From positions 1 through 34,851 of the forward strand of contig JAJXWR010000021.1 in the NCBI GenBank assembly GCA_021781515.1: a DNA stretch of 34,851 bases, in the 5' to 3' direction. The notes beneath the pieces are model-generated. The model had not been told where the DNA came from and made no database searches. It saw only the letters and a list, made by a program, of their open reading frames with translations. The translations under genes were made by a program, and so were the position numbers. Source of the DNA: Pseudomonadota bacterium (GTDB lineage: Bacteria > Pseudomonadota > Gammaproteobacteria > Pseudomonadales > Moraxellaceae). This document shows positions 7,482 through 34,851 of this stretch, one piece after another. Numbering within the stretch: position 1 is the stretch's first letter; every line of letters begins with the position of its first letter.

Positions 7482-7506
7482 GTAACAGGGGGTAACGGGG
7501 TGTTAC
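7482..7506 (+). promoter_or_regulatory. GTAAC/GTTAC activator-like site (UAS), copy A
   Basis: GTAAC at 7482-7486, again at 7492-7496, and GTTAC at 7502-7506: three half-sites spaced exactly 10 bp, the last two forming an inverted repeat around GGGGT. The same arrangement occurs at 30485-30509, and GTAAC direct repeats at the same 10-bp step recur at 29068-29096. The site lies 85 bp upstream of a sigma-54 promoter, the usual position for an enhancer-binding protein such as NtrC or CbrB. CbrB is the activator of the analogous Pseudomonas RNAs; its identity here is inference. Confidence 0.65.
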
Positions 7507-7591
7507 TCGACGTAGCGGAAAAATGCAGTGAGCGTAGAGGTGTGTTTTAATAAACATCATTTAATCAATAGGATAGATGTATAAAAAATAG

Positions 7592-7606
7592 TGGCACGGT
7601 TCCTGC
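7592..7606 (+). promoter_or_regulatory. Sigma-54 (-24/-12) promoter, copy A
   Basis: TGGCACGGTTCCTGC matches the sigma-54 consensus TGGCACG-N4-TTGCW with one change and has the required GG-N10-GC spacing. It is preceded by a stretch shared with copy B (AAAAAATAGTGGCAC). Confidence 0.75.
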
Positions 7607-7617
7607 TTTATTTATAT

Positions 7618-7886
7618 TGCCAGATGATGAAAAATAAAAATGGCAAATAAAAATAACAAGACAATAAAAATAAAACAAATTATATAAATAAATAATAAGA
7701 ATAAATACCAAAACAATAAAAGCAATACAATAAAAGCAATAAAATAAATACAAATAATAATAACGCACAAAACAATAAATAAATTAAGTGAATGTCGTAT
7801 AAAAAAAACAAAAAACCACAAAAAAACAAAAAACCACAATCCATAAATGATGAGCACCGGGAGATGAAGTCTCCCGCTCCATCCTC
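7618..7886 (+). ncRNA. Putative sigma-54-dependent A-rich small RNA, copy A (CrcZ/CrcY-like architecture)
   Basis: The predicted start is about 12 nt after the -12 GC. The next 230 nt or so are strikingly A-rich and almost free of G, dominated by AAN-type triplets such as ACAATAAAA and AATAATAATAACG, with an 18-nt tandem repeat at about 7808-7838. AAN repeats bind the distal face of Hfq (family knowledge). The end carries CGGGAGA-TGAAG-TCTCCCG (7858-7876) inside a sequence almost identical to copy B. It resembles the Pseudomonas CrcZ/CrcY RNAs, which titrate Hfq-Crc in catabolite repression. There is no poly-U after the hairpin, so the 3' end is uncertain. No protein is encoded. Confidence 0.6.
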
Positions 7887-25926: not shown

Positions 25927-27330
25927 TTAGACTCCGTCAGGCGTTTCCAGGTGCGATGGCATCCGATCTTGTGCATTCATCACTTGTAGATTTTCCGCCT
26001 GCCGTATTACTGAAACGTCTGCATCGTCGGCATGCAACAGGACAATGGCCGGGCGATATTCAATAAATTGCAACCATTGTGTGTTGTTGTAGGCTCCGGT
26101 GGGTGAAATCAGCAGCCTGTCTCCAGGTTGTTGCGGGGGCAGGGAAATACTTTGACGGATGACATCAATGTTCATGCACAGTGGCCCATAGAGCACCGTT
26201 TCTTCCGGGTATCCCCGTGAGGGTTGCGTCAGTTGAACCTTATGGTGATACCAGAATCCGGTAAACAGCACATTCACCCCCGCATCCAGCACCAGAGCCC
26301 GGCGGTTGTCAGGCAGGCGTTTGTTGGCAACGACGGTTGTTAATAGACACTGTGCCTCATCAATGACAGCACGCCCGGTTTCCAGAACCAGCTGCGGCAG
26401 CGAGCGGCGATCCAGCAGTTCTTCATGCAATGTCGTACACATCGCCTCGGCATATTGTTCGAAGCCTGGGACGACCTGCTCCGGCGGTAAATAAATCCCT
26501 TGCAGGGCATTGCGTGAAGCGAAACCACCGCCAATATCCAGGTAATCCAGATAGATGTCGTACTGAGATTCCAGTTGACGCATAAAACCACACATCTTAC
26601 GGATTTGCGCCTGATAGGCACGCACATCAAGTACAAAAGTCCCTATATGACTGTGCAGGCCAATCAACTTAAGATGGGGACTTCGCATGACCCGGACGGC
26701 GGCATCGCGAGCTTCTCCGTTATCCAGATTAAAGCCAAAACGACTCCAAGTATCGGTATAGCCGGTATCGAAATTGAGGCGCAGCGCAACCTGGGCCACC
26801 TGTTTCTGCTGCCCGGCTATTTTTTCAAGCGCAGCGATCTCATCAAAATTGTCTAAATGAATCCGCGCCCCTTCAGTGACCGCCCGCTGGAGGCTGGCAG
26901 TGGTTTTGTGGGGGCCATTGTAGATAATCTGAGCACCAGGAACGCCCAGACTCCGTGCCTTGTCATACTCAAAAGCAGAGACGACTTCGGCCCAACTTCC
27001 TTCTTGGTGCAAAATCCGGCAAATGGCGCTGGTATAATTGGTTTTATAGGACCAGCCGTGAATAACCTCTGGATAGCGACTGGAAAAAGCACTGAGCAAA
27101 TGCCGGATATTCTCTCGCAACCGCTGTTCCGACGTAACAAACAGCGGTGAACCGTAGGTCGCCAGTAATTGCTCTATGGAACGTCCTTCCAGTTGTTCAA
27201 CCGGTTGCTGAACATCCACACTACGTCGGCCGAATTTATTCAGGCCAGTCATCTGCACCACACATAAAAAGGGGGCTTCCCAGGCTTGTAATTCACCATC
27301 GTTGGTCGTCGGGGTAGTCAGCGAATTCAT
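25927..27330 (-). CDS. PLP-dependent decarboxylase, Dap/Orn/Arg (fold type III) family
   Basis: A 467-residue protein. Seen: PLFVTSEQRLRENIRHL, the PLP-lysine in GWSYKTN (Lys 96), HSHIGTF with the ring-stacking His, the phosphate-binding GGGFASR, LETGRAVIDEAQ where relatives usually have EPGR, GPLCMNIDVI with the active-site Cys at the dimer interface, and GAYNNTQW. About 45 extra residues precede the usual domain start. The family removes the alpha- or D-centre carboxylate of diaminopimelate, ornithine, arginine or carboxynorspermidine. The substrate cannot be read here; it need not be lysine biosynthesis because the neighbours are ATP-grasp and PqqD-like. GGAGAG precedes the ATG, which overlaps the ATP-grasp stop (ATGA). 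Confidence 0.9.
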   Translation of the reverse strand: MNSLTTPTTNDGELQAWEAPFLCVVQMTGLNKFGRRSVDVQQPVEQLEGRSIEQLLATYGSPLFVTSEQRLRENIRHLLSAFSSRYPEVIHGWSYKTNYTSAICRILHQEGSWAEVVSAFEYDKARSLGVPGAQIIYNGPHKTTASLQRAVTEGARIHLDNFDEIAALEKIAGQQKQVAQVALRLNFDTGYTDTWSRFGFNLDNGEARDAAVRVMRSPHLKLIGLHSHIGTFVLDVRAYQAQIRKMCGFMRQLESQYDIYLDYLDIGGGFASRNALQGIYLPPEQVVPGFEQYAEAMCTTLHEELLDRRSLPQLVLETGRAVIDEAQCLLTTVVANKRLPDNRRALVLDAGVNVLFTGFWYHHKVQLTQPSRGYPEETVLYGPLCMNIDVIRQSISLPPQQPGDRLLISPTGAYNNTQWLQFIEYRPAIVLLHADDADVSVIRQAENLQVMNAQDRMPSHLETPDGV

Positions 27331-28517
27331 AATATTCTCTCCAGATCCTGATCAATTAACTGCACAGTTACACGGGTGTTGGCTACACATTGAGTTTTTG
27401 AAAATCCGGTGGACAGGATTCGACTCCCATTAACCGTCATGGCTTCCAGTTCCGCCATCGGCACAATCTGTTCCTCGGCATAACGGATAAATGTCATCCC
27501 GGAGCGGGCCTTTTCTGTAGCGCAGCGGCCATGGCTGATGTACTGGAGAAGGCGAGCCGGCAAGTTACACCCCGCTCCATGGGTCAGATAAACCCAGGCG
27601 GGAAACCGCGGATTAATTTCAAGAAGATGAAATTTTCCCTGTGAATCACAGATCATTTCAATTTCCATCGGGCCTGGCCAACGTAATTGCTCAATCAACC
27701 GTTGAGCAATCGCTTCGAGTAATGGATGCTCAATAGTCGTTCCCGCCCAGGCTTTGCCTTTTTCCGTCAGCGCCCGTTTGCGCATCATCACCATGCCCAG
27801 GCTATTGCCTTCACCGTCCCCGAGCGCACATATGTTGAATTCCTGCCCGGCAATGTATTGTTGTGCCAGGATTGGCAGGCCCCATTCACCGGCCAGTTTG
27901 TGAAATGCAGCGGTCGCCATCGTGGCATTACTCGCCACTACGGCATCATAGAACCGACCTTTGACCACCAGCGGGTAAGACCAGCCCTCCCGTTCACAAT
28001 CCAGAAAAAAGCGCGGATGGGTCAAATGGCGAATGGCAGGAGTAGACACCGCCGCTGCTTGACAAAGTTCCGGAAGACGATCTTTATCCCGACGACCAAC
28101 CAGTGAAGGTTCAGGCAACAACGTATGAATACCTGAATCCGCCAGCGCCGGTGCCAGTCTGCTGAAAGCCACCAGTTCGGAGTCCAGACAGGGAATCAAG
28201 ACATCAAAGGGATTTTCCTGATGAATCTGCTGCAGTCGTAGTAATAATGCAGCCTCGCCACTACTGGGCCAGGGCAATAAGTAACTACTGCTGCAGATGT
28301 CTGGATGGTACAATCCGCCATCCAGGACGTCATAACCTAATCCAATGATATCACCTGCAAATTCTTCATGTTCCCGAAGACAGCGGGCAGTAGCATACCC
28401 AGGTCCCGGATTATCCGGACGGTTATTCATGCCAGTAATGGCCACACGTTTTTGCGTCCATTGCGGCGTTTTTTGCACAGACAGGGGCGGACATAAACCA
28501 AGAGGAATAGGGTTCAT
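27327..28517 (-). CDS. ATP-grasp carboxylate-amine ligase-like protein
   Basis: A 396-residue protein. The N-terminal half is a pre-ATP-grasp domain (KRVAITGMNNRPDNPGPG; FDVLIPCLDSELVAFSRLA). The ATP-grasp core follows, with lysines in YPLVVKGRFYDA, the ILAQQYIAGQEFNICALG strand, and the Mg site GPMEIEMICDSQGKFHLLEINPRFPAW with the E-x-N signature. The layout is like PylC or CPSase-type ATP-grasps, which join a carboxylate to an amine through an acyl-phosphate. I start at 28517 (MNPIPLGLCPPL), which overlaps the PqqD-like stop by 4 nt; the frame extends 18 codons further without a ribosome site. The substrate is unknown: the decarboxylase next door may make its amine partner, or the PqqD-like protein may present a peptide (inference). 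Confidence 0.87.
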   Translation of the reverse strand: MNPIPLGLCPPLSVQKTPQWTQKRVAITGMNNRPDNPGPGYATARCLREHEEFAGDIIGLGYDVLDGGLYHPDICSSSYLLPWPSSGEAALLLRLQQIHQENPFDVLIPCLDSELVAFSRLAPALADSGIHTLLPEPSLVGRRDKDRLPELCQAAAVSTPAIRHLTHPRFFLDCEREGWSYPLVVKGRFYDAVVASNATMATAAFHKLAGEWGLPILAQQYIAGQEFNICALGDGEGNSLGMVMMRKRALTEKGKAWAGTTIEHPLLEAIAQRLIEQLRWPGPMEIEMICDSQGKFHLLEINPRFPAWVYLTHGAGCNLPARLLQYISHGRCATEKARSGMTFIRYAEEQIVPMAELEAMTVNGSRILSTGFSKTQCVANTRVTVQLIDQDLERIL

Positions 28518-28804
28518 AAGAGTACCGCCTGCAATTGCTGCACAAAACGTTCGATAGCAATGGCACAACAATCGGCATCGACGGCAAATTGCCGGGTCAA
28601 TGCAACAATCAACTCGTTCAACGGCTTGGCTGATTGCAATTGTTGCAGAAGAATAATACCCGATGGATTGACGGTAAAACTCTGACCACTCATTGGATCA
28701 AAGACAAAGCCATTATGACTTAAGGCCAGTACGTTGAGACGCTGTTGCTGATACAACCTGTCCAGCCAGGGCTGAGATGATGAAAGTGAGGGAGGGGTAG
28801 ACAT
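28514..28804 (-). CDS. PqqD-like protein (possible RiPP recognition element)
   Basis: A 96-residue protein. Its core reads NVLALSHNGFVFDPMSGQSF then TVNPSGIILLQQLQSAKPLN, with a C-terminal helical half (ELIVALTRQFAVDADCCAIA). This is the PqqD pattern (FDPxxGxxxxLNxxGxxIxxxL) of a small winged-helix chaperone that in PQQ and other RiPP pathways binds the leader of a precursor peptide. I start at 28804, where GGAG lies upstream. It is the first gene of the eight-gene operon. I searched nearby for a precursor-like small ORF and found none I can support, so the partner may be elsewhere or not a peptide. Confidence 0.75.
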   Translation of the reverse strand: MSTPPSLSSSQPWLDRLYQQQRLNVLALSHNGFVFDPMSGQSFTVNPSGIILLQQLQSAKPLNELIVALTRQFAVDADCCAIAIERFVQQLQAVLL

Positions 28805-29097: not shown

Positions 29098-29651
29098 ATG
29101 ACCCCTTGCTGGGTCGAAGTCCCTTTAAGCACCGGACAGGCGAGTCGCACCGCATCCCGGCTCAAACACTCTGCACAAAACCACTTGGCAGGACAAACAC
29201 ACAAGGTGTGTTCCGCTCGTCTGCAGCCGTTATGGTTCGCTGGCCAACGCCGACGGGGGTGTGCCAGTTCCCCATCTTCGATAGCTGCGTGACGCTGGCC
29301 AATCTGATTGCATTCGTCGGCAGCGGCGAGCAAACCGCCACCTATCATCAATGGGCACAGAGTTGCGAACCTGACATCTGCCAAACCTGAAGGAGATCAA
29401 CATGGACCTCTCCGGCATCGACACAGCGGCGTGCCGCCAAAAGCATCATCGGCATGTTCTTTCCTGTGCCAAGAAGCGATGTGTTGTTTCCAGAATTCCC
29501 GGCTTGCCTCTGGTGTCATCATGACTCGCCATGTCTTTGGCTTTGAGACATCGTAACGAATCAGATACTTTTATCACAGGTGCACTTTACCGAACGCTTA
29601 CCAAATAACCGTCGGGCAGCTCGGTGTTCCACAGGTGCCTTTGAAGAACTT
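29098..29651. other. Gene-free, probably decayed sequence
   Basis: About 550 bases richer in G and C than the flanks, with several short overlapping frames and no family I recognise. One plus-strand frame ends ANLIAFVGSGEQTATYHQW before a stop at 29390, followed by a ribosome-site-like GAAGGAG and a short ORF. It may be remnant coding sequence from a mobile element, in keeping with the intron fossil just after it. Confidence 0.35.
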
Positions 29652-29725
29652 GAGCCGAGTGCGGTGTGAATCGCATACACGATTCTTAGGGGACGGTGGC
29701 CCAGTAATGGGGGCTGTTACCCGAC
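29652..29725 (+). mobile_element. Group II intron 3'-end fossil (domains V and VI)
   Basis: Positions 29652-29685 match the 34-nt domain V layout of bacterial group II introns: GAGCCG, then GTGCG, GTGTGAATCGCA as the distal stem-loop, and CGATTC closing the stem (consensus CGGTTC, so one pair is lost). TTAGGGGACGG follows and then a domain VI-like hairpin ending in TTACCCGAC, the usual 3' boundary. No reverse transcriptase reading frame or 5' end (GUGYG) was found, so this is a dead remnant next to hicB. Confidence 0.6.
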
Positions 29726-29753: not shown

Positions 29754-30152
29754 TCATTGATGCATGGCCACACGGGCAGCCTCAACCAGAAAGCCGCTGC
29801 GACTCAAGCCGTGAGCCTTAGCATATGCATCTATGCGTGCAAGTATCAAGCGCGGTATGGTTATGTTGATTTTTTCGGCAGGTCCAAGGTACTTTTCAAC
29901 AGGGACATCCACCACAGCCCAGATCCAGCCCGCATATTCTGGTTCCGACTGAATCTCAGATAGCGATCGAGCGGCAGGAATTGTCACACCGTCCTCAATC
30001 ATGATTTCAACATGCTGATCTATGGCCAGGCGAGCATTTTCCATCGCTTCGTCCATCGTGTCCCCAGCAGAGAAGCAGCCTGGCAGATCAGGTACAGCCA
30101 CTCCCCAAGCGGTGGAGTCTGTTCCAGGCTCAAGGGCAATGATAAATTTCAT
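29754..30152 (-). CDS. hicB: HicB antitoxin with C-terminal ribbon-helix-helix domain
   Basis: A 132-residue protein. The N-terminal degraded RNase H fold reads GVAVPDLPGCFSAGDTMDEA and ENARLAIDQHVEIMIEDG; the C-terminal DNA-binding part reads INITIPRLILARIDAYAK and LSRSGFLVEAARVAM. It should bind HicA and repress its own promoter. Its ATG overlaps the hicA stop by 4 nt. It appears intact, whereas its partner HicA is scrambled in the middle. Confidence 0.93.
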   Translation of the reverse strand: MKFIIALEPGTDSTAWGVAVPDLPGCFSAGDTMDEAMENARLAIDQHVEIMIEDGVTIPAARSLSEIQSEPEYAGWIWAVVDVPVEKYLGPAEKINITIPRLILARIDAYAKAHGLSRSGFLVEAARVAMHQ

Positions 30153-30484: not shown

Positions 30485-30509
30485 GTAACATAGGGTAACG
30501 GGGTGTTAC
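30485..30509 (+). promoter_or_regulatory. GTAAC/GTTAC activator-like site (UAS), copy B
   Basis: GTAAC at 30485-30489 and 30495-30499 and GTTAC at 30505-30509, the same 10-bp rhythm and GGGGT centre as copy A, 86 bp upstream of the sigma-54 promoter. Confidence 0.65.
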
Positions 30510-30595
30510 CTCACGTAGCGAAAAAATTGGGGTATGTCCGTCAGTGTATTTCAATAAACTCATTTTATTCAATGAAATAGATGCAGAAAAAATAG

Positions 30596-30610
30596 TGGCA
30601 CAGATCATGC
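30596..30610 (+). promoter_or_regulatory. Sigma-54 (-24/-12) promoter, copy B
   Basis: TGGCACAGATCATGC has GG-N10-GC spacing and the TGGCAC block. It lies in AAAAAATAGTGGCAC, identical to copy A, while the spacer bases differ. Confidence 0.75.
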
Positions 30611-30621
30611 TTTGTATATAA

Positions 30622-30841
30622 TGTTGCAAAATAAAAAAACAAAGCGACAAAAAATTAAAATAATAAAGCTCACTAAAAATAATAAAACGCACTATAACAA
30701 GAATACATAAATATAAAAATCAACTAAAAACAATAATAAAACCGAACAATAATAAAAAAACATTTATAAATTCAAATAAATAAAACAGCTAAATACCCGT
30801 AATGATGAGCACCGGGAGACGATGTCTCCCGCTCCATGCTC
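30622..30841 (+). ncRNA. Putative sigma-54-dependent A-rich small RNA, copy B
   Basis: About 220 nt. The middle is A-rich with AAN-type runs (AACAATAATAAAA, AAACAATAATAAAACCG) but differs in sequence from copy A, while promoter and 3' end are conserved. The end folds as CGGGAGA-CGATG-TCTCCCG (30813-30831) inside an outer GAGCA/TGCTC stem (30807-30841). This pattern, conserved ends around a divergent A-rich body, suggests that composition rather than exact sequence is selected, as for an Hfq or Hfq-Crc titrating RNA like CrcZ/CrcY (inference from family knowledge). No poly-U follows, so the 3' end is uncertain. Confidence 0.6.
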
Positions 30842-31006
30842 AGTAATAGTCAGTTTGTCTTTCCGTTCGTTTCTTGCTCTTTGTTCGAATCTTCAATGTG
30901 TTGCTACCCTAAGATGAGCAATTGTCGGATCCTCCGCTTCAGATAACCTTGCAACCGTTGTGATGCACAATCCGTTATTGCCCAGGAGAATCCGTCATTT
31001 CTGTGT

Positions 31007-31660: not shown

Positions 31661-32953
31661 TCACCTCGCATCCAGATAATCGCTGTACCACAGGCCACCC
31701 AGCGGCAAACCTTCGGCCACCATGTTTTTGACAGTGGGGTCATCGCTTGCTCTGTGGATTAACGAATAGCCATCCGGTCCCTTTTCCAGAATCCAGACTT
31801 CAGCGGGTTCCAAGGCATCTACCAGATAGGGCTGATGGGTCGTAATGAACACCTGAGAGCCGCCCTTGCGGCCTGTTGCGTGCTCGCGGAATTCCTTTGC
31901 CAAGGATTCAAGAAGTTTATGGTACAAGCCATTTTCCGGCTCTTCAATACATAAAAACGGTGGGGGTGTTGGATCTTCGAGCAACAGGAGGTAGGCGAAT
32001 ACCTTCAATGTGCCATCAGACATTTGTTGCGAATAAAAGGTGTCTTGAAAACCTTTGTCATTGAACCGCAGTAGCAAGCGGCCATCGTTTGTTTTTTCTG
32101 TGTCAATCTTGTTGATGCCGGGAATTTTTTCGGCAATTCGCTTCAAAATGGCCTGGAATTGCTTTGGATGTTCCCGCTCCATGAATTGCACGACGTTTCC
32201 GAGATTGTCGCCGTGGCTGTTGAGATGTTTCTGTGGGCCGGCGAGGGGCAGGCTCCTTGCTGCGTCTGGAGTGAAATAGCTGAGGTACCACCCTTCGATA
32301 AACTTGCGGAATGCGGAAATCCTCGGATGCTGTTTCAATGAACCCAGCGTGGCAATCCCCAGCTTGCGCTGGTCGTCAAGCTCAACAACCTCGGTTTCTG
32401 TAGACTCTTCTTCCGCCTCACCTGATTCAATGGACTGAATCAGACCAAACAGATCAAATACATCGTGTTCTTCATCGATCTGTCGGCCTTCTTGATCGCC
32501 TTTCCAAACAATACCTTTTCCACTGTTCAACAAGAGAAACGAGAAGGGCCATCCGTGTTTCTGACCTTTTCGCCGCTGTCTGAGACGTTCTTTCAAGACA
32601 TAAGGCCGACCTGAATGATCAACATTAATGGATATTTCATAAGTGATTGGACGGGCATTCCCATCCTCCTTGTAATAGACCTCAAATTCGATGGGCCCTT
32701 TTTGACCTTGTGCCCGGATACGCTCAAAACCGCCCCTGCCGCGAGAGTCGCACGCCTCTTCGACCCCAGATTTTAAGGCATCCGCAAGAAACCCGAAGGC
32801 ATCAAGCAACGTGCTCTTGCCTACACCATTCTTTCCAATAACCGCCGTCATGGGGGTGAGGGGATCAGTCTGTTGTTGATTCCAGAGGCGACCGAGTGTC
32901 ACGTCTTTGAGCGACCTGAAATTCTTTATTCTAATACCTTCAATCGTTGCCAT
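31661..32953 (-). CDS. AAA/ABC-type ATPase of a defence-like pair (AAA_21, OLD-like)
   Basis: A 430-residue protein. Seen: IRIKNFRSLKDVTLG, Walker A GKNGVGKSTLLDAF near residues 40-53, the ABC-like signature QQMSDGTLKVFAYLLLL, Walker B PPFLCIEEPENGLY and the H-loop VFITTHQPYLVDAL. This is the SMC/RecF-like ATPase of OLD, RloA, AbiL and PARIS-type systems, which pair with a TOPRIM or RloB-type effector; the DUF4276 gene 4 nt downstream fits that place. It follows the type III restriction gene by 55 nt on the same strand, so it could be carried as an accessory of that locus. The ATPase appears intact although its partner is broken. Confidence 0.9.
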   Translation of the reverse strand: MATIEGIRIKNFRSLKDVTLGRLWNQQQTDPLTPMTAVIGKNGVGKSTLLDAFGFLADALKSGVEEACDSRGRGGFERIRAQGQKGPIEFEVYYKEDGNARPITYEISINVDHSGRPYVLKERLRQRRKGQKHGWPFSFLLLNSGKGIVWKGDQEGRQIDEEHDVFDLFGLIQSIESGEAEEESTETEVVELDDQRKLGIATLGSLKQHPRISAFRKFIEGWYLSYFTPDAARSLPLAGPQKHLNSHGDNLGNVVQFMEREHPKQFQAILKRIAEKIPGINKIDTEKTNDGRLLLRFNDKGFQDTFYSQQMSDGTLKVFAYLLLLEDPTPPPFLCIEEPENGLYHKLLESLAKEFREHATGRKGGSQVFITTHQPYLVDALEPAEVWILEKGPDGYSLIHRASDDPTVKNMVAEGLPLGGLWYSDYLDAR

Positions 32954-33008
32954 TATCCGCCCCCTATTCTTGTAATCGCCTCTGCGGCGGATGATTTGTC
33001 GGTTGTCA

Positions 33009-34851
33009 CTACTTCACCACGTCCATCAGTTTATCAAAACTATCTACTACGTCGTACTTCACCTCCTTTACAGCGTAACGTCGGTTCATCTCATCAAAAA
33101 ACTTGCGGGCGCATTTGATCTTGGTTTTCTCGATCTCGCGCAGATCCATTGATGACATTGATCCCTTGGTTTCTGCAACAAAGTAGATGTGCTTTACCGC
33201 ACCTTCCTTGAAAGAGATGGCCCAGTCGGGATTGTAGTCACCTACCGGGGTCGGGATCAGAAAACCGCGTGGCAACTTGGCGTACACAACCACTTCAGCA
33301 CTGGCTTCCAACGCCTTGGCAAAATCTGATTCAGGTGTTGATCCGGAATCCGGCAGCACGAAATCGTAAATATGGTGCCGGGGTGTTTTGACCGCATGGC
33401 TAAAATCCTGCCGGGTTTGCCCGGCGGTAAAGATGTCCTGGTCGAACTTGTCTTCGATCGGATCGTAGGCCAAATGTTCGATGATAACGGTGGACTTCTG
33501 CTCGTTGATCAAGCGTACTGCTTCGGCTATGAAGTTCTCTGGGTTGATTTTAAACTGTGCGAACACAGCGGCGTCGAGTCCTTTGAGAATCTCGGCCACC
33601 GCACGCCGTGTCAGTTGGGTGCCTTCGCTAAGTTTGCCGATAAGGTCGTACTTGACTGCCGAATGGATTGATATGTGGTTAATTTCCGTTTCCGTGACCC
33701 TCAGATCGAAAGCGTTGCCGCCCTTGATCCCCTCGTAGGTCACCACGGCGGTCTGTTCTCCCTGTTGTATAGTGTATTGCAACGGAGTTACCCGTAGTCC
33801 AGCCTCTTTGTCGTTAAGAGTATCGACTGCCTTCTTGATCAGCTCGTCGGAGTTGAATTCAACGCTGTACGCTGCTTTGTGGTTGATACGATTCCAGAGT
33901 TCCTTGAACTCTTTTTTTGCGAAATTGGCGTTGAGCGGGTTTTTCTTGGGTTTGCGGTCGTCGTTGATTTCTGGCAACTGACTGTCGCTGAAGACACTGT
34001 CGATCAACTGGAACACCTGCTCGGCGTGTTCTGCAAGCTCCGGGGGTAGTGTTGCCAAAGCACCGTCCTTCCTGTCCTGGTGATAGCCGCAGGTGATATG
34101 GTCTGCGTCATCGGTATAGTCGTGTTTCAGCAGGTACCTGTAAATCTGCTTTGCCAGCGGCGGCGTAATTTCGACGTCGCCAGTCGCCGTTTTTAGCACA
34201 CGGCCGGAAAAGCAGTCTGGAGTTAACACAGGCAAACGTGCTGATAATGATTCGCTAATGTCTTTCTGTAGTGCAGTAACAAAATCCTTGTAACTTTCAC
34301 TCGCCACCACGGTCAATACGTTCACATCGTGCACTGTGGCCGGGTGATCCATCCGGTCACCGCTTTGGTTAACGGCCAGTCGTAAGCCGCGCCCCACCTC
34401 CTGGCGGCGTGAAATGGTGTTATCGCTGTGCTTGAGCGCACAGATGACGAACACATTCGGGTTGTCCCAGCCCTCGCGTAAGGCTGAGTGCGAAAAAATG
34501 AAGCGCACCGGTTCTGCAAACGCCAGCAAGCGTTCCTTGTCCTTGAGAATTAAGTCGTAGGCATCCACATCGTCGGACAACCCGGCATTCTCACCACGTG
34601 CTGCAACCGTTGGGTCGGCCAGTCGCTTGCTCTTCTTGTCGATGGAAAAGTAGCCACTGTGGGTTTTTTCAGCAGAAATGCCTTTCAGGTACTGAATGTA
34701 CGGTGTCTGGTCTAGATCCAGCACTTCGTTGAGGTAGATCTGGTATTCTTCCTCGAAAATGCGGGCGTATTCGCCTTTTTCGTCGGCCACTGTGTAATCA
34801 CGGTACTTGATCACTTCGTCGATGAAGAACAAGGTCAAGACCTTGATGCCT
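33009..34851 (-). CDS. Type III restriction enzyme Res subunit, C-terminal part (runs off right edge)
   Basis: About 614 residues with no start in view; the frame is open to the edge ([17 protein letters not shown]). Seen: SF2 helicase motifs [19 protein letters not shown] (motif V) and [15 protein letters not shown] (motif VI), then a long linker and a PD-(D/E)xK nuclease in the last 120 residues ([26 protein letters not shown]). Type III enzymes are Mod-Res complexes that translocate and cut DNA between two inversely oriented unmethylated sites. The Mod gene would lie beyond the right edge. No stop or frameshift is visible in this part. Confidence 0.94.

Follow-up and report, generated by a model that had tools for sequence, protein, structure and literature searches.

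Two copies of a unit composed of phased CbrB-type half-sites, an IHF-like site, a sigma54 promoter, an A-rich body and a 3′ hairpin were found in the window (the whole stretch of 34,851 nucleotides that was analysed), and the Moraxellaceae host genome appears to carry at least six such units at dispersed positions. We consider it likely that these units encode CrcZ-like small RNAs, which are induced by CbrB and sigma54 and titrate Hfq.

According to the proposed mechanism, each unit would be a free-standing small-RNA gene of about 220–270 nt. After exhaustion of the preferred carbon source, the transceptor kinase CbrA would activate CbrB, which would act on the phased TGTTAC/GTAACA half-sites and, together with DNA bending by IHF, drive the sigma54 promoter. 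The resulting RNA is predicted to be an A-rich, mostly unstructured chain with a 3′ hairpin and, in several copies, also a 5′ hairpin. Its A-R-N repeats would load the distal face of Hfq, thereby freeing catabolic mRNAs from Hfq-mediated translational repression. Since the exact sequence would be needed only at the promoter and the ends, the bodies could drift and yet stay A-rich. The six dispersed copies would take the place of the one crcZ found behind cbrB in many relatives. The prediction extends the same circuit to Moraxellaceae, to which Acinetobacter belongs, and to other gammaproteobacteria, with an enlarged RNA family. It would serve as a natural test both of the need for Crc and of where an Hfq decoy is under constraint (promoter and ends) or free to vary (A-rich body).

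Anatomy and copy number of the units

The host genome (2.79 Mb in 142 contigs, 95.94% complete) is probably a MAG. A preliminary description of the window had reported copies A and B about 23 kb apart, with common activator sites at nearly the same distance from a TGGCAC block and with a 3′ hairpin of variable loop, and all of these features were recovered (Table 1). The TGGCAC blocks at 7592 and 30596 lie 23,004 bp apart, GTAACA, GGTAAC and TGTTAC occur in both copies, TGTTAC is separated from TGGCAC by 85 bp in copy A and by 86 bp in copy B, in agreement with that description, and the hairpins with their variable loop read GGGAGATGAAGTCTCCC in A and GGGAGACGATGTCTCCC in B. Copy B was confirmed as a real unit with phased half-sites, IHF-like site, sigma54 promoter, a body of about 60% A and 3′ hairpin, and copy A, spanning 7482–7879, follows the same plan. 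The outer stem described as an addition in B (TGAGCA/TGCTCA) was also predicted for B and not for A (−20.0 kcal/mol; 0/200 shuffles as good); it shows no sign of function.

Table 1. Positions of the sequence features of copies A and B in the window
Copy	Feature	Position	Strand	Basis
B	CbrB-type half-sites GTAACA (30485–30490), GGTAAC (30494–30499) and TGTTAC (30504–30509)	30485–30509	+	Sequence match to published half-sites
B	ACGTAGCG box, possibly a degenerate fourth half-site	30513–30520	+	Same letters in 6/6 copies
B	Putative IHF-like site, 29 bp 5′ of TGGCAC	30567–30579	+	7/9 positions of the IHF consensus, by eye; top match of the script in B elsewhere
B	Sigma54 −24/−12 promoter TGGCACAGATCATGC	30596–30610	+	Sequence; kept in 6/6 copies
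B	Predicted RNA 5′ end (+1 at ~30622, placed by sigma54 spacing) and 5′ hairpin TGTTGC/GCGACA with A-rich loop	30622–30649	+	3/200 shuffles as stable
B	A-rich body, 61% A, 3 (A-R-N)n≥4 runs; predicted to bind the distal face of Hfq	30628–30803	+	Binding predicted from PMC4063720
B	3′ hairpin CGGGAGAC-GAT-GTCTCCCG, outer TGAGCA/TGCTCA	30806–30842	+	Predicted fold; similar GGGAG..CTCCC hairpins in relatives
A	Half-sites GTAACA, GGTAAC, TGTTAC and ACGTAGCG box	7482–7517	+	Sequence
A	IHF-like site AATCAATAGGATA, at −29	7563–7575	+	8/9 positions of the IHF consensus
A	Sigma54 promoter TGGCACGGTTCCTGC	7592–7606	+	Sequence
A	5′ hairpin TTGCCA/TGGCAA with A-rich loop	7617–7646	+	2/200 shuffles as stable
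A	A-rich body, 64% A, 9 (A-R-N)n≥4 runs	7623–7850	+	0/300 shuffles with as many runs
A	3′ hairpin GAGCACCGGGAGATGAAGTCTCCCGCTC	7852–7879	+	Predicted fold

The preliminary description had counted two copies in the genome, but blastn of the host genome with copy B revealed six units: two in the contig of the window (C41), two in contig C134 (C134a, C134b), and one each in C53, a short contig, and C142, where the copy lies near the contig end. Copy A was recovered at E=2.4e-29 and the four others at 1.4e-39 to 1.3e-23, so that the likeness of A and B is not due to chance. Three more scans of the host genome with different patterns, one of them a GTAACA version of the pattern aimed at other CbrB targets, gave the same six units and no seventh. 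The search for further copies that the preliminary description had proposed thus ended with six units in the host, and with additional ones in congeners.

The three half-sites GTAACA/GGTAAC/TGTTAC are present 5′ of the promoter in 6/6 host copies, as is TGGCAC-N6-TGC, a sigma54 motif of the GG-N10-GC type. In 10 of the 13 promoters examined, the stretch that best fits the IHF consensus is placed at −29 or −30. At the position of the host ACGTAGCG box, congeners have GGTAGC or AGTAGC. TGTTAC and GTAACA are the half-sites named for P. putida CbrB in PMC6296734, and those of the host are equal to them.

The six copies fall into three sequence groups, {A, C53, C142}, {C134a, C134b} and {B}. Mean pairwise identity among all six is high in the activator block (0.92), promoter (0.91) and hairpin (0.93), intermediate in the spacer (0.67) and low in the body (0.54, gaps counted) and the flanks (0.42–0.43). 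Between groups, homology stops at the first half-site and just past the hairpin. The divergence of the A-rich bodies of A and B, as claimed before, was confirmed, with an alignment score of 34, compared with a mean of 23 and a maximum of 36 for 100 shuffles. The ten other between-group body pairs score 40–54 against shuffled means of 24–30, which indicates that faint homology is left there. Body divergence is therefore strong between the groups, but it does not extend to the four within-group pairs, whose bodies are 88–93% identical. C53 and C142 lie in larger duplicated segments with common flanking repeats, and some copies thus probably arose by segmental duplication.

All six bodies contain 61–64% A, compared with 22–35% A in the 200 bases on either side. 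The copies have 9, 7, 5, 5, 4 and 3 (A-R-N)n≥4 runs, 33 in total. These runs exceed shuffled sequences in A and in C53 (2/300 with as many), and stay within the expectation from composition in B (104/300) and C134a (119/300); counts of AANAANAA are clearly above shuffles only in C134b. Of the selection on composition that the preliminary description had proposed, the conserved A content stands, but a motif excess beyond composition is clear in some copies only, so that composition is what is shown to be kept. As described in PMC4063720, there are six (A-R-N)n≥4 stretches in CrcZ of P. aeruginosa, an RNA that attaches to the Hfq distal face and titrates Hfq away from catabolic mRNAs.

The inner 3′ hairpin is common to all six host copies, and no pair is changed on both sides. 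Hairpins of the GGGAG..CTCCC type occur in 27 of 37 units, the remaining ten having another or no such hairpin. For the covariation set, 22 of the 27 were used and five were left out. MAFFT misaligned these hairpins of mixed origin, and its alignment was replaced by a script alignment on the GGGAG/CTCCC core. In the 22 core-aligned hairpins, the pairs flanking the core change together: pair −1 occurs as C-G, U-G, A-U, U-A and G-C (21/22 paired), and pair 5 as A-U, G-C and C-G. As the hairpins had been chosen by an inverted-repeat search, pairing is partly built in, and the joint change of pair types is the informative part. The covariation proposed as a check of the hairpin was hence seen once relatives were added, but not among the six host copies alone. 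No T-run follows the hairpin in host copies A and B.

At the other end, 5′ hairpins of 5–6 bp with A-rich loops were predicted in B, A, C142 and C53 (at most 9/200 shuffles as stable), their sequence differing between B and the A group; they are absent from the predicted folds of C134a, C134b and a Pseudomonas-like control. A 5′ hairpin with at most 9/200 shuffles as stable was obtained for 8 of 26 units, several of which are related copies, and as a unit feature it is only suggestive.

Regulators and distribution among relatives

The sigma54-activator family is represented in the host genome by seven matches, of which six are at full strength; such activators imply RpoN. One of the full-strength activators is a CbrB-like protein of 446 aa with receiver and sigma54-interaction domains (L048:7972–9312, minus strand). 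The CbrB-like gene directly follows the gene of CbrA, a kinase of 986 aa, in which a Pfam scan detected PAS and kinase domains, and no SSF domain at 0.001. Residues 2–594 of CbrA match PDB 10ED at E=6e-186, an entry given in PMC13022988 as the SLC5-STAC part of Pseudomonas CbrXA. The host also encodes Hfq with a conserved core and a distal A-binding face, in which Phe replaces Tyr25. With regard to Hfq targets in the fetched part of the host genome, an A-R-N run near the start codon was found in 1 of 60 sampled genes, against a background of 1.6%, so that no target emerged from this sample.

The host encodes one protein of the ExoIII/Crc family. It retains the nuclease motifs and is closer to a Neisseria ExoIII (2jc5, 270.7 bits) than to Pseudomonas Crc (4jg3, 179.5 bits), so that it is no more than a candidate for a Crc partner. 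Its gene adjoins an ORF that reads like pyrE, and pyrE-crc is also the neighbourhood in Pseudomonas.

Proteins like CbrA (E≤1e-80) were found in 36 of 58 genomes, comprising 19/37 of the host's own family (host included) and 17/21 of other families of the order. CbrA and CbrB occur in Moraxellaceae and in further gammaproteobacteria. A CbrB-like gene lies next to CbrA in 75 of 80 named loci, and the C-terminal helix-turn-helix region of these regulators is very similar among the compared relatives. A unit, defined by three or more AANAANAA motifs together with a CbrB half-site and a sigma54 site, stands directly behind cbrB in 27 of the 74 named loci with enough downstream sequence. No such unit was seen behind cbrB in 53 of all 80 loci, 47 of which have readable downstream sequence. 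Among the named strains, Agitococcus lubricus DSM 5822 possesses cbrAB and, provided that G005 is this strain, also a unit at G005:C1:212458. In the host, cbrB ends 40 bp from a convergent smpB (named by eye), no unit follows it, and the ancestral crcZ place is empty. CbrA-CbrB pairs without an A-rich unit behind cbrB were also noticed in Thioalkalivibrio, Solimonas and Ectothiorhodospira (L235, L236 and L240), where CbrAB may have other outputs.

The Rfam CrcZ model (RF01675, gathering score 95) gave no match in the window at the gathering score, nor did it recover any of the six loci when E was relaxed to 5. The positive control, the unit of a Pseudomonas-like relative (G056), reached 306.8 bits, whereas two Moraxellaceae units behind cbrB scored 27.0 bits (E=0.0024) and 20.0 bits (E=0.26); such units escape the model.

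In the two congeners, at least three and at least two units, respectively, are present, with half-sites mostly in forward-reverse-forward order about 11 bp apart and with bodies unlike those of the host copies. One orthologous pair in congeners G001 and G002 adjoins the same convergent gene (aat-like by eye). Identities are 0.88 for the activator block, 0.89 for the promoter, 0.92 for the 3′ part and 0.60 for the spacer; the A-rich part, with 59% A in both species, has 0.73. The congener unit G002a (L162) has a body made up largely of ACAAAAA-like repeats, as if the decoy had grown by repeat slippage.

Outside the host, blastn of copy B against 58 genomes retrieved nothing but short A-rich matches. 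Strong matches were confined to the host both for a strict pattern, GGTAACNGGGTGTTAC, in 99 genomes and for a model of the 5′ block built on sequence alone, in 293; the sites had diverged. The pattern TGTTACN{70,100}TGGCAYNNNNNNTGC is not specific by itself, as it matched 58 of 99 genomes, including genera without CbrA, many matches looking coding. Twenty places of the looser pattern, picked by eye and genus, were followed and kept if an A-rich downstream region or a cbrB neighbour was present. A second kind of CbrB/sigma54 unit, not beside cbrB, was observed in sister genera (L164, L165, L166, L167 and L168); it has a long hairpin followed in most cases by GGCCACTGAGA and another hairpin at the end, and the next gene is pcnB-like by eye.

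Known systems and alternative explanations

The host units resemble CrcZ, CrcY and CrcX of Pseudomonas and Azotobacter in their CbrB-type half-sites, IHF-like site, sigma54 promoter, A-R-N-rich body and 3′ hairpin of the GGGAG..CTCCC type. The parallel to CrcZ/CrcY drawn in the preliminary description is strengthened by the presence of CbrA, CbrB and Hfq in the genome and of a similar unit right after cbrB in relatives, and its interpretation of the copies as regulatory RNAs is supported. There are also differences. Six copies stand against CrcZ with CrcY and/or CrcX per species in PMC8871633, and copy B measures about 225 nt compared with 407 nt for P. aeruginosa CrcZ, a length taken from PMC4063720. 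The host half-sites are about one helical turn apart rather than about two as in the Pseudomonas-like control, several host copies have a 5′ hairpin, and none lies beside cbrB or matches Rfam. Owing to the missing Rfam match and cbrB neighbourhood, the host copies are not filed as CrcZ; their plan is CrcZ-like, and distant homology to CrcZ is probable.

RsmY/RsmZ and CsrB/CsrC bind RsmA/CsrA through GGA loops. Like the proposed decoys, they are RNAs titrating one RNA-binding protein, a comparison made for CrcZ itself in PMC4063720, whereas the host units are A-rich and presumably aimed at Hfq. As in CbrA/CbrB, an SLC5-STAC kinase adjoins a sigma54 activator in the host; PMC8871633 calls this system unique to Pseudomonadaceae and describes the cbrA-cbrB-crcZ arrangement only in Pseudomonas and Azotobacter, unlike its presence in Moraxellaceae and other gammaproteobacteria found here. 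A literature search for CbrA together with Moraxellaceae found no paper, and related searches gave none as judged by titles and the beginnings of abstracts.

The sharp ends of copy homology, at the activator sites and immediately behind the hairpin, would also suit a dispersed repeat, mobile or duplication-borne, that carries a promoter by chance and whose copies have no regulatory role, and so would the larger duplicated segments around C53 and C142. However, no ORF belongs to the unit, the groups have retained the sites and ends but have different bodies, and a similar unit recurs behind cbrB in relatives. The preliminary description had regarded conservation of the whole unit, body included, among relatives as the mark of a mobile repeat; instead, congener bodies differ, and the orthologous pair is fixed at one place beside the same downstream gene and keeps its ends with a diverged A-rich body. 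We consider a repeat without function very unlikely. Hfq-bound RNAs can also pair with mRNAs, and the bodies contain one to four ATG start codons each, as might be expected of Hfq-dependent base-pairing sRNAs or small-protein mRNAs. Yet no conserved seed is present, the bodies of A and B align hardly above shuffled sequences, and indels between copies make conserved reading frames unlikely, which renders both roles highly improbable compared with decoys.

Sigma54-dependent leaders of downstream protein genes, instead of free RNAs, would be in line with the activation of protein genes by CbrB in P. putida (PMC6296734), with a beta-CASP gene on the same strand after C53 and with a fumarase gene about 800 bp past A. 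This explanation has very little probability in our judgement, since a strong hairpin closes each unit, the downstream genes vary between copies, and only opposite-strand genes and short unsupported ORFs extend over 2 kb behind copy B.

A further reading may be offered tentatively. CbrAB-CrcZ could be an old gammaproteobacterial system and not an invention of Pseudomonadaceae, and in this genus crcZ could have left its ancestral place to give rise to dispersed multi-copy Hfq decoys. These may work without a nuclease-dead Crc, perhaps reflecting a state before Crc lost its catalytic residues.

Gene neighbourhood of the copies

The genes flanking the host copies differ and include ubiE and an acyltransferase gene, etfQO and the gene of a beta-CASP protein, hicB, and the gene of a type III restriction protein. 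At the C53 unit (L011) and the C142 unit (L009), two more repeats of ~156 and 238 bp were noticed, which lie in direct orientation on both sides of the C53 unit. The ~156 bp repeat, part of which is found again at other genomic positions, resembles the beginning of a decayed ORF.

The neighbourhood of copy B is defence-rich, with a HicB-type antitoxin at 29754–30152 (−) and, at 31661–34838 (−), an AAA ATPase with weak similarity to MAD3 as well as a fragment of a type III restriction endonuclease. A match to a group II intron domain at 29650–29725 (+) is below threshold (35.4 bits, gathering 40), and ~67 bp of it are 83.6% similar, in inverted orientation, to DNA upstream of copy C134b. Further away, the region 25927–28571 (−) encodes a decarboxylase similar to the rhizoferrin synthesis protein FslC (226 bits, cut-off 500), next to an ORF that is ATP-grasp-like by eye; together they form a possible metallophore cluster.
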